64,000 nt of DNA, from positions 35,733 through 99,732 of the forward strand of contig JAGRES010000022.1 of assembly GCA_020446425.1 (NCBI GenBank). The letters are read 5' to 3'. Numbering within the stretch: the stretch's first letter is position 1; each line of letters starts with the position of its first letter. Made by a program: the position numbers and the translations under genes. Under the pieces are notes generated by a model that was not told the DNA's origin, did no database searches, and saw nothing but the letters and a program-made list of their open reading frames with translations. Source of the stretch: Sphingobium sp. (GTDB taxonomy: Bacteria; Pseudomonadota; Alphaproteobacteria; Sphingomonadales; Sphingomonadaceae). Shown here piece by piece: positions 25,451 to 30,225 of this stretch.

Positions 25451-26632
25451 ATGGCTCAATCCCACATATATGATGCGATCATACTGGGCGCGGGTGCGGC
25501 CGGGATGATGTGCGCGGCGATGGCGGGCCGGCGCGGCCGCAATGTGCTGCTGGTCGATCATAATGCGCAGCCGGGGCGGAAAATTCTGATCTCCGGTGGC
25601 GGGCGCTGCAACTTCACCAATATCGGCACGCGCGCAGACCGCTATCTCTCCGCCAACCCGCATTTCGCCAAATCCGCGCTCAGCCGGTACACGCCGCGTG
25701 ATTTCATAGCGCTGGTCGAACGGTACGGCATCGCCTGGCACGAAAAGACGCTGGGCCAGCTATTTTGCGACGGTTCCGCGCAGCAGATTGTTGATATGCT
25801 GGTCGACGAATGCAAGGCGGGGAATGTGACCCCGGCCTTCGGACAGCCTGTCAGTGCCGTCGATCATCGCGATGGGCGCTATCATGTAAGCTGCGGGGGG
25901 CACGAATTCACCGCACCCTCTCTCGTTGTTGCTACCGGCGGCCCTTCGATCCCAAAACTTGGCGCTACCGGCTTCGCCTATGACCTCGCGCGGCAGTTCG
26001 GTCTCAAGGTCGTACAGCCGCGTCCTGCGCTTGTGCCATTCACATTGGGCCCGGAAGACACGCTCTTCCGCTCGCTTTCCGGTGTCTCGACCCCGGTGCG
26101 GGTGCGGTGTGGCAAGGCGGTGTTCGAGGAAGCGGCCCTCTTCACGCATAAGGGGCTTTCCGGTCCGGCCATGCTGCAAATCTCTTCCTATTGGAAACAT
26201 GGCGAGGCGATCCATGTCGATATGCTGCCCGGTCTCGAGAGGGAATGGCTGCTCGCTCTGAAGCAACAGGAACCCAATGCACAGTTGCGCGCGGTGTTTG
26301 CCCGGCATCTGCCTGCGCGTCTTGCGGAGGCCTTGTGCGAGAAGCTTGGCGAGAACGGCCAGCTTGGCGCGATGCAGGACAAGGCCTTGCGCGCCATTGG
26401 TGAGCGGCTCGCCAATTGGGAGTTCCGGCCCAGCGGGACGGAAGGCTATGCCAAGGCAGAGGTCGCCGCTGGCGGCGTGTCGACCGATGGTCTCTCCTCC
26501 AAGACGATGGAGGCCAAGCATCAATCCGGCCTTTATATCATTGGCGAGGCGGTCGATGTCACCGGCTGGCTCGGCGGCTATAATTTCCAATGGGCGTGGG
26601 CCAGCGCCCATGCCGCCGCAACGGCGCTCTGA
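25451..26632 (+). CDS. HI0933/BaiN-like FAD-dependent oxidoreductase
   Basis: 393 residues. An N-terminal FAD-binding Rossmann fold (AIILGAGAAGMMCAAMAGRRG, with Glu/Asp-type end VDHN) is followed by the family signature GRKILISGGGRCNFTN at about residues 44-60. The C-terminus has the second FAD contact with GGVSTDGLSSKTMEAK and GEAVDVTGWLGGYNFQWAWASA. This HI0933/YhiN family is widespread, but physiological substrates are mostly unknown; BaiN acts on bile acids in gut bacteria, which is unlikely here. Confidence 0.9.
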   Translation: MAQSHIYDAIILGAGAAGMMCAAMAGRRGRNVLLVDHNAQPGRKILISGGGRCNFTNIGTRADRYLSANPHFAKSALSRYTPRDFIALVERYGIAWHEKTLGQLFCDGSAQQIVDMLVDECKAGNVTPAFGQPVSAVDHRDGRYHVSCGGHEFTAPSLVVATGGPSIPKLGATGFAYDLARQFGLKVVQPRPALVPFTLGPEDTLFRSLSGVSTPVRVRCGKAVFEEAALFTHKGLSGPAMLQISSYWKHGEAIHVDMLPGLEREWLLALKQQEPNAQLRAVFARHLPARLAEALCEKLGENGQLGAMQDKALRAIGERLANWEFRPSGTEGYAKAEVAAGGVSTDGLSSKTMEAKHQSGLYIIGEAVDVTGWLGGYNFQWAWASAHAAATAL

Positions 26633-26668
26633 CGCTGGAGGGCTGATTTCGATCAACCTTTCGCATCG

Positions 26669-26684
26669 TTCGACGAGCGTCAGG
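26669..26684. promoter_or_regulatory. Candidate LytTR-regulator site upstream of the kinase gene
   Basis: The 16-mer TTCGACGAGCGTCAGG matches TTCGACGAACGTCAGG at 29418-29433 at 15 of 16 positions. Its core GACG-N2-CGTC is palindromic. It lies 42-57 bases before the ATG at 26726 and ahead of a -10-like TATAAA (26715-26720) whose -35 region is poor, a typical activator arrangement. Assignment to the adjacent response regulator is inference. Confidence 0.45.
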
Positions 26685-26725
26685 CCGGGCATCGCACAAA
26701 CCGCGCAAATGCGCTATAAACGGTC

Positions 26726-28051
26726 ATGATGACCGAAGAAAGAAACGAGCGGCAGGCACTGCCGACGCGGGTTGCATTATTATCAATAGCGGGCTTCTGG
26801 GCCTTTTATTTCCTGATCATAACCGTTCGGGCGATGCTGTTCGGGTTTGACCATCAGCTCGAAATGATGGGGCGCCGCCTGATCGTGGTGAGCGTCTGTG
26901 CGTTCGTCACCTACCTTTTCTATCTGATATTGAGGCGTCAGTTCCTGGCGTCCATCAGGCGCACCATGGTCATCGCCGCCCTGCTCGCCTTGCCCGCATC
27001 GCTCATTCATTCCACCGTCAATTATATGGCCTTCAAGGAAATCGAGGCCCGAATGGCGGCAAAGATGAAAGAAAAGGAAAAGAAAGTCGTCGTCATTGAT
27101 GGGAAGCGCGGTTCGGTGAAGGTAACGCAGAATGACCGTCACATAGAAATAGGCGGTGATGCGCCAGAGCCAATACACGAGCCGATACAAGAGTCAGCAC
27201 ACGCTGTACCCCCTCCGCCGCCGCAGCCGCCTGTCCCTCCAGAAGCCGGCAACGTTTATATTCAGGTCGGCGATGTCGAGCACGAAAGGGAGAAGCCGAC
27301 ACTGGTCGGCATCCTGGATTATGGGGTCAACAGCTATTTCTTTTTCGTTGCCTGGGCCGCGCTGTATCTGGCCCTGTGCTATGCTGCGGAAACGCGGTTG
27401 CTGGAGCGCAGGACGGCACGGTTTCAGGCCGCCGCGCGGGAAGCCGAGCTGAAGGCCTTGCGCTATCAGGTCAATCCACACTTCCTGTTCAATACCCTCA
27501 ATTCGCTGTCGTCGCTGATCATGACGGCCAAACCGGCCGAGGCGGAAAAGATGATCATGAACCTGTCGAATTTCTTCCGCGCGAGCCTGGCCGCCAACCC
27601 TGTCGAGGATGTGACGCTTGAAGAAGAGATCGACCTTCAGCGCCTGTATCTGGACATTGAAGCCGTCCGCTTTCCCCGGCGCCTCAAGACCGAAATCAGC
27701 GTGCCGGACGATCTGAAACTGGTATGCGTGCCCGCCCTCATTCTTCAGCCGCTGGTCGAGAACGCGATCAAGCACGGCGTTTCGCAGGCGAAAGAGCCTG
27801 TCACGGTCTCCATTCGCGCGCGTGAAGATTCACATGGTCTGGTGCTGTCGGTCGAAAATAGCGGATATACAGCTGGCGATGCCATAAGCGGGGATTCTGA
27901 TCGCCAGAATGGAATGGGTGTGGGCCTGCAAAATGTACGGGACCGGTTGGCTGCACGCTTCGGCGACGATGCGTCATGCCGCTGGGGGCCTATGCCGGGC
28001 GGCGGCTTTGGCGTGACCATCTACATGCCGGTGATCCGCGATGGGTGCTGA
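26726..28051 (+). CDS. LytS-type sensor histidine kinase
   Basis: 441 residues. Four transmembrane helices are visible (about 12-36, 50-70, 78-98 and 190-212). A variable loop between helices three and four holds a Pro-rich stretch followed by VYIQVGDVE. The His_kinase domain (PF06580 type) has the phospho-acceptor His in QVNPHFLFNTLNSLSSLI, followed by a HATPase domain with LVENAIKHG and GMGVGLQNVRDRL. It overlaps the LytTR regulator gene by 11 bases, so the two form a pair. TATAAA ends five bases before the ATG, suggesting a leaderless transcript. Confidence 0.93.
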   Translation: MMTEERNERQALPTRVALLSIAGFWAFYFLIITVRAMLFGFDHQLEMMGRRLIVVSVCAFVTYLFYLILRRQFLASIRRTMVIAALLALPASLIHSTVNYMAFKEIEARMAAKMKEKEKKVVVIDGKRGSVKVTQNDRHIEIGGDAPEPIHEPIQESAHAVPPPPPQPPVPPEAGNVYIQVGDVEHEREKPTLVGILDYGVNSYFFFVAWAALYLALCYAAETRLLERRTARFQAAAREAELKALRYQVNPHFLFNTLNSLSSLIMTAKPAEAEKMIMNLSNFFRASLAANPVEDVTLEEEIDLQRLYLDIEAVRFPRRLKTEISVPDDLKLVCVPALILQPLVENAIKHGVSQAKEPVTVSIRAREDSHGLVLSVENSGYTAGDAISGDSDRQNGMGVGLQNVRDRLAARFGDDASCRWGPMPGGGFGVTIYMPVIRDGC

Positions 28052-28781
28052 CGCGGTGCGTACGCTCATCATCGACGATGAGCCGCTCGCCATCGAACGG
28101 CTGCAGATATTGTGCGCGCAGATAGCGTCAATCGACCTTGTGGGTACAGCCAATGACGGCGACGCCGCGCTGCGGATGGTAGAGGCTCTGCGGCCAGAGC
28201 TGCTGCTGCTGGATATCGCCATGCCCGGCCTCGATGGCTTGGGTGTTGCGCGCGCGCTCGAGAAATTGGGTGTGCGGCCCGCCATCATCTTCTGCACCGC
28301 CTATGACAATTTTGCGATAGAAGCGTTCGATGTCGCGGCCGCAGGATATCTGCTGAAGCCCGTTGCGCTGGAAAAACTGGAGCGCGCGGTTGAACGGGTG
28401 AAGGACCGTATTGCTCAGCCCGCCGAAGAAGCCGCGCCGGAAAGGCAGGACTGCGTCTCCGAATTCTGGGTGCCGCACAAGTCGGAAATGATACGGATCG
28501 ATGCACAGGATATCGACCGGATCGAGGCGGAACGCGATTATATGCGGCTATATGTCGGCAAGCGCAGCTATTTGATCCACCAGACGATTACCGAGCTGGA
28601 ACGGTGCCTCGATCCGGAACAGTTCATCCGGGTGCATCGCTCCAATATCGTGCGGCGCGACCTTATCGAAAAGCTGTCGCACGATGGCATGGGTGCGTGG
28701 CACGTCAGCCTCAAGGGCGGCACCAGCTTGCGTATTGGGCGCACCTATCTCCCCAAGGTGAAAGCGATAGCGGGCCGGTAA
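28041..28781 (+). CDS. LytTR-family response regulator
   Basis: 246 residues. An N-terminal receiver domain (about 6-125) has the acidic pair IIDDEP, phospho-acceptor Asp in LLLDIAMPGLDG, and Lys in YLLKPV. A LytTR DNA-binding domain follows (about 150-245) with IEAERDYMRLYVGKRSYLIH and QFIRVHRSNIVRRD. Such regulators bind pairs of short direct repeats. The kinase is upstream and overlapping. A shared motif before the kinase gene and before the convergent urcA suggests at least two targets. Confidence 0.94.
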   Translation: MGADAVRTLIIDDEPLAIERLQILCAQIASIDLVGTANDGDAALRMVEALRPELLLLDIAMPGLDGLGVARALEKLGVRPAIIFCTAYDNFAIEAFDVAAAGYLLKPVALEKLERAVERVKDRIAQPAEEAAPERQDCVSEFWVPHKSEMIRIDAQDIDRIEAERDYMRLYVGKRSYLIHQTITELERCLDPEQFIRVHRSNIVRRDLIEKLSHDGMGAWHVSLKGGTSLRIGRTYLPKVKAIAGR

Positions 28782-28814
28782 ACCGGCATTCCAAGGCGAC
28801 CGGTCGCGGCATAT

Positions 28815-28849
28815 AAAAAACCCCCGGGCAGCAAGGGACAGCCCGGGGG
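28815..28849 (-). terminator. Rho-independent terminator of urcA
   Basis: A perfect 9-bp GC stem (CCCCCGGGC 28821-28829, GCCCGGGGG 28841-28849) with an 11-base loop is followed, on the minus strand, by six T residues (A-run at 28815-28820). The polarity therefore serves urcA and not the plus-strand regulator. A second stem (28855-28860 with 28874-28879) lies between it and the urcA stop. Confidence 0.9.
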
Positions 28850-28882
28850 CATTCGCCAGCACGTGTCGGGTGCGCTGGCAAA

Positions 28883-29260
28883 TCAGCGGGAAACCTGTTT
28901 GATCTCCATGCGGTCGGCGGGGCGATTGGCGGTGAGGGCTTGACCCTTTTTATGTGCAGCGACAGCCATTTCGATTTGCGGACGGACAGCATTGAGCGCC
29001 ACCTTGCGGCATTCCCTGGCCCGCGCATTCATTTTTATGTCGCGCGAAAATGCGGGACATACCCTGCGCGCTGCACGTTCTACCCGCGTTTCTAGTTTGT
29101 CGCGACCTTCGCTAGTCGCCAGATCGAGGTCGCCATAATGGACCTCCGCCGTCGGCAGTTTCGCATCAGGCTCGCCAGCCGTGGCGGCGCCAGCCATGCC
29201 GAGCAAAGCGACAGCAGCAAGGCCACTCATGCCAGCCCTGCACATAATCCTGTTCAACAT
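28883..29260 (-). CDS. UrcA family secreted protein
   Basis: 125 residues. A signal peptide (MLNRIMCRAGMSGLAAVALL, then to about ATAGE) precedes a UrcA domain: VHYGDLDLATSEGRDKLETR then AARRVC and a second cysteine in ARECRKVAL, likely a disulfide. UrcA proteins are abundant in sphingomonads and caulobacters and have no established function. AGGAG lies six to seven bases before the ATG. It has a strong promoter (29376-29405) bracketed by repeats, and a dedicated terminator, so it is a well-controlled single-gene unit facing the LytTR regulator. Confidence 0.87.
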   Translation of the reverse strand: MLNRIMCRAGMSGLAAVALLGMAGAATAGEPDAKLPTAEVHYGDLDLATSEGRDKLETRVERAARRVCPAFSRDIKMNARARECRKVALNAVRPQIEMAVAAHKKGQALTANRPADRMEIKQVSR

Positions 29261-29344
29261 TCTCTACTCCTGTTTCTTCCCGAAGCCTGCCGGCCGGACC
29301 GGTCAGCGGCGATGGAAATAAGTGTAGAGTCCAATGCTGGTTAG

Positions 29345-29433
29345 GGCTTATGTGCTTCGATAAGTGGCCGGGCATATTATATCGGCGGAGAAATGGCGCG
29401 ACCAACGGCTTATCTGCTTCGACGAACGTCAGG
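29345..29433. repeat. Direct repeats bracketing the urcA promoter
   Basis: The 16-mer GGCTTATGTGCTTCGA at 29345-29360 recurs as GGCTTATCTGCTTCGA at 29407-29422 (15 of 16 identical, 62 bases apart). One copy lies just upstream of the -35 box and the other just downstream of the predicted start. The upstream copy merges with the 29418-29433 motif shared with the kinase promoter. The arrangement suggests paired operators or looping. Confidence 0.6.
29376..29405 (-). promoter_or_regulatory. Promoter of urcA
   Basis: On the minus strand TTGGTC (29405-29400), an 18-base spacer and a perfect TATAAT (29381-29376). A start near 29369 gives a leader of about 109 bases before the urcA ATG at 29260. Confidence 0.7.
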
Positions 29434-29463: not shown

Positions 29464-30225
29464 TCAGGGCCGCCTTATACCATAGTCGATTCGTATCCCG
29501 ACCCATTCCCCGATCAGGGTGCGCCCGCCTTTGCGTGGTGGCCGTACGCGGAATTGCCATGACGCCTGCAGCACGGCGTTTGCGATGCGCGACCCGGCGG
29601 GATATTCACCGATAATCACGCACTGGTCGACCCGATATTCCGGCTCCGTCTTGCAGGCGATGAGGCCCCATCCCGGCCCGCTCGCGGTCGAGAGATAGCC
29701 TGCCAGCTCTCCATCTGTAGGCTCCCGATACCACTGCGCAGCGTAAAGCGGTTCGCCATTGGGGCCGGTGCCGCCCATCAGCGGGGTATCGCCGGGAACG
29801 CCTGCAGCGGATGGACCCATCATCCGTTTCGCAGGTGCGGGCGGTCTGGGCCGCTCTGGGATCTTCGATATGTCCATCGCGGCCAGCATGTCAGGCGACA
29901 TGGGAATCAGCGACGGTAGTGTGACGGCCGGTCTGGGTTCTTCCTTGTCGGGTGGCGTGGGTGCCGGCTGCGGCTTTTGCAGCGGCTTTGCCTCCTGCGC
30001 CGTGTCGCTGTTCTGTTCCTCTTCTGGCGCGGGGTCGGGCCCGATGTTGAAGGTCGTCAGCGCGGGCTGCGTGCTCTGCTGGCCGGAGCGCGTCGTCTTT
30101 CCGAGCGTCAGCAGCATGAGCACCAGCAGCGCCTCCAGCGCCAATGCAAGGACCAGCCCCGTCGCGCGGCGGCCAGAATGTCCGTTCAACCGTGCACGCA
30201 AAGTGGCGGAGAAATTGCCGGTCAT
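29464..30225 (-). CDS. Membrane-anchored TonB-like periplasmic protein
   Basis: 253 residues. One N-terminal transmembrane helix (about 22-41) is followed by a Pro/Glu-rich linker (about 60-135) and a compact C-terminal domain (about 155-253) with TGPNGEPLYAAQWYREPTDGELAGYL split by a turn, two cysteines (LIACKTEPEYRVDQCVIIGE) and QASWQFRVRPPRKGGR. The plan of anchor, Pro-rich spacer and C-terminal domain is that of TonB, and the ending resembles TonB C-terminal domains. No ExbB/ExbD genes are adjacent, so I treat it as TonB-like of unknown role. Confidence 0.7.
   Translation of the reverse strand: MTGNFSATLRARLNGHSGRRATGLVLALALEALLVLMLLTLGKTTRSGQQSTQPALTTFNIGPDPAPEEEQNSDTAQEAKPLQKPQPAPTPPDKEEPRPAVTLPSLIPMSPDMLAAMDISKIPERPRPPAPAKRMMGPSAAGVPGDTPLMGGTGPNGEPLYAAQWYREPTDGELAGYLSTASGPGWGLIACKTEPEYRVDQCVIIGEYPAGSRIANAVLQASWQFRVRPPRKGGRTLIGEWVGIRIDYGIRRP

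Follow-up and report, generated by a model that had tools for sequence, protein, structure and literature searches.

A conserved direct-repeat element before a LytS/AlgZ-type kinase gene and urcA points to a small LytTR regulon in Sphingobium

Genes of the locus

The promoters of a sensor kinase operon and of the neighbouring urcA gene were analysed in a 64,000-nucleotide (nt) stretch of Sphingobium sp. DNA, referred to here as the window. The kinase gene (26726..28051, plus strand) encodes a LytS/AlgZ-type sensor histidine kinase of 441 amino acids with the Pfam domains His_kinase and HATPase_c. The following gene (28041..28781, plus strand), which overlaps it by 11 nt, encodes a LytTR response regulator of 246 amino acids with the domains Response_reg and LytTR. 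A PF06580 sensor thus adjoins a Response_reg and LytTR regulator, which places the pair among the LytS/AlgZ-LytTR two-component systems. The best NCBIfam match of the regulator was the equivalog NF008677 of BtsR (YehT), a response regulator of E. coli, with 132 bits, yet the family cut-off of 246 bits was not reached. The kinase carries a long proline-rich insert between membrane segments (27060-27300), which is absent from relatives of about 372 amino acids, and the signal it senses may differ from theirs.

The urcA gene lies on the opposite strand (28883..29260, minus strand) and encodes a protein of 125 amino acids belonging to the UrcA family TIGR04433 (76.9 bits against an NCBIfam cut-off of 25). 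The protein is probably secreted, judging from a signal-peptide-like N-terminus recognised by eye. Its AlphaFold model had a mean predicted local distance difference test score of 75 and gave five matches in the PDB, the best with an E value of 4.5, so the structure yields no function for UrcA.

Operators in the window

Two 16-mers, TTCGACGAGCGTCAGG (26669-26684) and TTCGACGAACGTCAGG (29418-29433), had been paired in the initial annotation, and both were confirmed at these positions with a single-base difference. The distances given there also hold with the -10 boxes it had chosen, the 16-mers lying at about -58 to -43 for the kinase and about -64 to -49 for urcA. Its description of the motif as a palindrome, GACG-N2-CGTC, had to be replaced, as each 16-mer is instead one half of a bipartite direct repeat. 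The longer element at each promoter consists of two direct repeats of about 10 base pairs (bp), of the type GTTSRTCGAA, with a period of 21 bp; the second half-site, 21 bp from that within the 16-mer, had been missed.

At the kinase promoter, half-site 1 is TTCGATCAAC (reverse complement GTTGATCGAA; 26648..26657, plus strand), and half-site 2, 21 bp further on and within the 16-mer, is TTCGACGAGC (reverse complement GCTCGTCGAA; 26669..26678, plus strand), which ends 47 nt before the ATG. Read on the minus strand the operator is GCTCGTCGAA-N11-GTTGATCGAA. The urcA operator, also on the minus strand, is GTTCGTCGAA-N11-GTTGGTCGCG, with half-site 1 at 29418..29427 within the 16-mer and half-site 2 at 29397..29406, 21 bp away. 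A degenerate third half-site, ACTTATCGAA (29356..29365, minus strand), matches at 7/10 positions and lies 62 bp from half-site 1, near the position of the last half-site in the four-part array of the relatives (60 bp); a match of this quality was found in 1.4% of shuffles at two fixed offsets. In a scan of the whole window the kinase and urcA pairs were the sole ones scoring at least 16/18. The layout at both promoters, with a period of 21 bp and a spacer of 11-12 bp, agrees with what PMC11347149 gives for LytTR sites, namely direct repeats of 9 bp that are separated by 10-13 bp.

Conservation of the kinase promoter

The element was compared over 60 kinase loci, comprising the window, 38 loci from 37 same-genus genomes and 21 named contigs. 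Scoring used a 20-point consensus derived from relatives, so that independence from it is confined to the window and the named contigs. In 57 of the 60 orthologous loci a score of at least 14/20 was reached by the best repeat with a 21-bp period close to the start of the kinase gene. Those below were L018, where no ATG was found, L114 and L164, whose promoter, seen also as locus L019, carries the repeat with a 20-bp period. The geometry was fixed as well, the second half-site ending 44-51 nt before the ATG in 55 of the 57 loci and 37 and 29 nt before it in the other two.

For the further comparisons a stringent matrix built from the kinase sites was replaced by a core 7-mer score, which was chosen after the outcome with the matrix had been seen and was thus not blind; for urcA the matrix was too strict, since the GAA flank is not kept there. 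With the core score, 62 of 67 kinase promoters of the wider genus set reached 12/14, against 14 of 2680 first-order shuffles. The column profile of these 62 promoters showed the blocks GCTGGTCGAA and GTTGGTCGAA around an unconserved spacer, with 1.15-2.0 bits of information in the half-sites and 0.2-0.9 in the spacer. The GAA flanks were nearly invariant, and they lie outside the score, the rows having been picked by their 7-mer cores. Conservation upstream of the orthologous kinase genes, which the initial annotation had made a test of its proposal, is strong.

Conservation of the urcA promoter and its dependence on the kinase

In 39 of the 60 loci the gene after that of the regulator encodes an UrcA protein and lies on the opposite strand. 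Of 38 urcA upstream regions, 35 scored at least 12 at the 21-bp period, compared with 53 of 1900 shuffles, and many of them contained four or more half-sites. The window pair has the maximum core score of 14/14. Across the genus set, 64 genomes with the kinase contributed 66 matching UrcA genes, of which 64 reached 12/14 in gene orientation (shuffles 75/2800; opposite strand 1/66), and none of the four matching UrcA genes in genomes without the kinase did so, the best score there being 9. Conservation in front of orthologous urcA genes is strong as well, as the same proposal had demanded.

Gene neighbourhood alone does not account for this. Of 67 listed UrcA genes 41 lie within 6 kb of the kinase, and the site was present at 23 of the 24 scored genes that are at least 20 kb from it or on another contig. 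A paralogue control was made with 33 loci, one of which was dropped, the matching subfamily being defined as over 90 bits. Among 20 non-syntenic UrcA genes of kinase-bearing genomes the site was found at 12/12 matching genes and at 0/8 other paralogues, though one of the latter (L201) scores 12 on the other strand. In kinase-negative genomes 12 UrcA genes were examined, including three over 90 bits, and none had the site.

Co-occurrence was counted in 94 genus genomes including the host, whose kinase misses the E 1e-90 cut and was counted from the window. Both the kinase and this UrcA were present in 66 genomes, the kinase only in two (G026, 60% complete, and G097), UrcA only in four and neither in 22, giving a Fisher p of 2e-15 without correction for kinship. 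The occurrence of the site depends on the presence of the kinase/LytTR system.

Another regulator might bind the sites and co-regulate both genes, for example that of the second LytS/LytTR system of the host (C17:8304 region, locus L336). It is also a LytTR regulator, 31% identical to that of the window over the aligned part, and LytTR half-sites are alike between systems. This explanation is improbable in view of the kinase-negative genomes. All 11 same-genus genomes of this kind that were examined carry a more distant LytS-like kinase, 37-48% identical, and they include three (G003, G010 and G023) of the four genomes with a matching UrcA gene but no site, the fourth being G084; the distant paralogue therefore does not explain the sites. 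Moreover, no pair of at least 12/14 precedes the second kinase, and three pairs of 12 lie elsewhere in its 5-kb locus. The regulator of the window is 60% identical to its orthologue at locus L158, which fits a conserved site.

Position of the sites relative to the -10 boxes

The predicted -10 box of the kinase, TATAAA (26715..26720, plus strand), lies 36 nt after half-site 2. Only 5 nt separate it from the ATG at 26726, which implies a leaderless or nearly leaderless mRNA. The kinase promoters of the relatives have a TAGAC/TAAAC-type box at a similar place, approximately 36-38 nt after the site as judged by eye.

For urcA, the -10 candidate of the initial annotation, TATAAT (29376..29381, minus strand), is not at the conserved spacing. 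In the relatives, 50 of 66 urcA promoters could be anchored on the last half-site. Successive half-sites in these are spaced by about 21, 19 and 20 bp, and in 46 of the 50 a TA-type box stands at one fixed distance, about 30 nt after the end of the last half-site. An alternative predicted box in the window, TACACT (29321..29326, minus strand), keeps the spacing of the relatives, at 39 nt from where the third half-site starts, and on account of this spacing we favour it over TATAAT. With TACACT as the -10 box, the urcA 16-mer would lie upstream of the start site by about 105-120 bp. The fixed distance of the sites upstream of poor -35 regions suggests activation as the effect.

Proposed control and the evidence weighed against it

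The best explanation, to which we assign a probability of roughly 0.82, is that the regulator activates its own operon and urcA, the kinase and LytTR regulator forming an AlgZR-like system which acts through shared direct-repeat operators. The phosphorylated regulator of the window would bind the GTTSRTCGAA direct repeats with their 21-bp period as a dimer or an array of dimers. At the kinase promoter it would sit just upstream of the poor -35 region and raise transcription, giving positive autoregulation, and at urcA it would switch the gene on from an array whose end lies as far from the -10 box as it does in the relatives. The small LytTR regulon of kinase operon and urcA that had been proposed from the two 16-mers is in this way supported and sharpened by the conservation across genomes.

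Several observations weigh against this explanation. The kinase half-sites of the window are degenerate, its urcA promoter has just two clear half-sites, and the orientation of the element with respect to the kinase gene is opposite to that with respect to urcA, which had not been noted before. UrcA-bearing genomes without the kinase number just four, and the genomes are related, so the counts are not independent events. Other periods also score: 17 bp in 31/67 kinase promoters against 62/67 for 21 bp, and 33 bp in 54/70 and 12 bp in 52/70 urcA promoters against 64/70. We put this down to the lenient score, in which a strong half-site needs just a 5-of-7 partner, and to the arrays at urcA; 21 bp is the best period at both genes. 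In the host genome (2.73 Mb; backwards motifs as controls where stated), a degenerate two-half pattern gave four matches, two of them these sites, against three in the control, and GTTSGTC-N14-GTTSGTC at two mismatches showed no excess (149 against 248). The pattern GAYSARC-N14-GAYSARC had 14 exact matches, of which two are the described sites and the other 12 are unassigned. Finally, if TATAAT is the true -10 box, half-site 2 of urcA overlaps the -35 region, which could mean repression.

The last point belongs to a reading in which both promoters are bound by the regulator of the window but urcA, or each of the two genes, is repressed until a signal brings release. The LytTR protein CoxC represses from a site over the -35 region, according to PMC11347149, and half-site 2 would cover the -35 region in the same manner with TATAAT (29381-29376); the opposite orientation of the site at kinase and urcA also speaks for repression. 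The spacing data point the other way, since the last urcA half-site of the relatives ends upstream of the TA-type box at the distance given above in 46/50 promoters, the kinase site lies upstream of the -35 region, and the window urcA keeps the 39-nt spacing with TACACT. Repression is regarded as unlikely, and activation remains the preferred effect.

The host counts bear equally on whether the likeness of the 16-mers is chance or a relic of duplication. The R-coded 16-mer has two exact copies in the whole host genome, both at this locus, one copy with one mismatch and five with two, against three in all for the backwards control, and GTTSGTC-N14-GTTSGTC has its one exact match at urcA. The expectation that the motif exceeds random frequency was thus borne out for the exact 16-mer; for looser forms it was left ambiguous by the counts above and by GAYSARC-N14-GAYSARC at one mismatch (315 against 159 in the control). 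Sorting the 14 exact matches of the latter by open frames placed all of them, both sites included, in frames of at least 102 codons, so this test does not discriminate in a GC-rich genome. Chance or a relic would be compatible with loose forms not clearly above control and with another 16-bp stretch, GGCTTATSTGCTTCGA, which is repeated within the urcA upstream region. It is very improbable nonetheless, because many species share the position, period and orientation of the element, even where urcA lies elsewhere in the genome, and the paralogue control (12/12 matching UrcA genes against 0/8 others) disfavours it. As the evidence of a single genome is weak, the operator claim rests on the comparison between genomes.

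Size of the regulon

A strict urcA-type pattern gave 73 matches in the 94 genomes, 39 of them at most 800 bp upstream of UrcA and 34 elsewhere, 12 of the latter in genomes without the kinase. The backwards control totalled 27 matches (sum of the control columns), which puts the 34 matches away from UrcA near background and agrees with the small regulon initially suggested. Five loci with matches away from UrcA were inspected, and four of the matches fell within open frames longer than 130 codons, which is weak evidence in a genome so rich in long frames. The fifth, in genome G099, is a direct repeat of the GTTGGTCGAA type (L345:1065-1094, plus strand) between two genes, presumably cytochrome b-like and M1 peptidase-like from their translations. 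A frame of 183 codons spans this repeat too, and its sequence recurs in genome G025. This site is a possible extra target.

Candidate small RNA beside urcA

In 61 of 66 kinase-bearing cases the region 430-790 nt upstream of urcA contains a second repeat of at least 12/14, compared with 0/4 without the kinase, 1/66 on the other strand and 38/1400 shuffles. This repeat is followed by about 150 nt ending in a strong terminator, a candidate small RNA found at L158:3810-3959 (minus strand), at L142:1020-1169 (plus strand) and in 57 more sequences like these two, with a host genome copy at L335:2188-2262 (plus strand). The candidate adjoins urcA or uvrA and is composed of a hairpin with the invariant GCCCGACAGC and a terminator with a TCCCTTG loop. 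It looks non-coding, as the longest reading frame in 59 sequences was 24 codons and no peptide was common to 15 compared. Its 3' part folds into the hairpin and terminator, and among 30 sequences 4 of the 16 pairs of this fold showed compensatory changes; no Rfam family matched at the gathering threshold in the eight loci scanned.

The RNA model matched 84 of the 94 genus genomes at E 0.01, some of them weakly. Many genomes also have a fainter second match, which suggests paralogues. The match of the host, on contig C19 beside uvrA, has no LytTR pair (best 9/14), and no pair above 10/14 was found at the candidate RNA in the seven kinase-negative genomes examined. The RNA therefore appears to predate its control by LytTR, and we do not count it among the targets in the host genome. 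The terminator region of urcA in the window (28816..28894, minus strand) weakly resembles the candidate RNA (27.1 bits, E 2.5e-5). The urcA terminator of locus L103 also resembles it, with 21.2 bits, as if the RNA module had turned into the 3' untranslated region of urcA in both.

Comparison with known systems

The AlgZ(FimS)-AlgR system of Pseudomonas aeruginosa likewise joins a LytTR regulator to a sensor kinase, and AlgR likewise uses several half-sites per promoter in either orientation (PMC4064291). The urcA half-sites ACGTTCGTC and CCGTTGGTC of the window each match the AlgR sequence CCGTTCGTC at 8 of 9 positions, and the kinase half-sites fit less well. Unlike AlgR, the window system is alphaproteobacterial, has an UrcA gene as its probable target and would use regular 21-bp arrays. 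The LytTR operators of CoxC/RcoM are also direct repeats with a spacing of about two helical turns near the -35 region, but their regulators control CO-oxidation genes and they have three repeats, TTNNNGCN / TTCNNGCA, as described in PMC11347149.

Control of an UrcA gene by a two-component system has a precedent, as UzcRS controls urcA in Caulobacter crescentus, whose UrcA is described as periplasmic and of unknown function in PMC8963506. The site published there is however the m_5 motif, CATTAC-N6-TTAA, and this motif with up to two mismatches had 12 matches in the window against 14.9 expected, none near urcA. A signalling link to urcA had been put forward as new. It would be new for LytTR, no earlier pairing with UrcA having been found in literature searches whose coverage left out most subscription journals; it is not new for two-component systems in general. 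The kind of system is already known, and the pairing with UrcA is the part for which these searches gave no precedent.

Role of UrcA

UrcA proteins have no assigned function in the literature consulted, and the near-exclusive, conserved link to one two-component system across sphingomonads singles out the UrcA paralogue, the kinase and the promoter on which work can concentrate. The exact operator is supplied together with natural positive and negative controls. More speculatively, this UrcA could belong to the circuit as a dedicated component, switched on by the system in the periplasm and acting back on the kinase or on the sensed stress, comparable to PilY1 and the minor pilins, which act on AlgZ/FimS (PMC13001225 and PMC5979040). 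In many relatives the regulator would also drive the non-coding RNA next to urcA, so that kinase, secreted protein and RNA would make up a compact module. We hold this extended role to be a tentative and rather unlikely one.

Neighbouring genes and other observations

The kinase gene is neighboured by an HI0933-like flavoprotein gene (25451-26632) and urcA by an unassigned gene with weak resemblance to TolA (29464-30225). In relatives such as L012, L023 and L032 the region before the kinase gene shows, as judged by eye, a GGAAC-N-CGTT-like pair on the opposite strand, which we take to resemble an EcfG general-stress promoter for a divergent gene. At locus L192 the Rfam sul1 RNA was detected with 79.2 bits (L192:3395-3450, plus strand) in front of an open reading frame (L192:3455-5008) that presumably encodes a SulP-type transporter.

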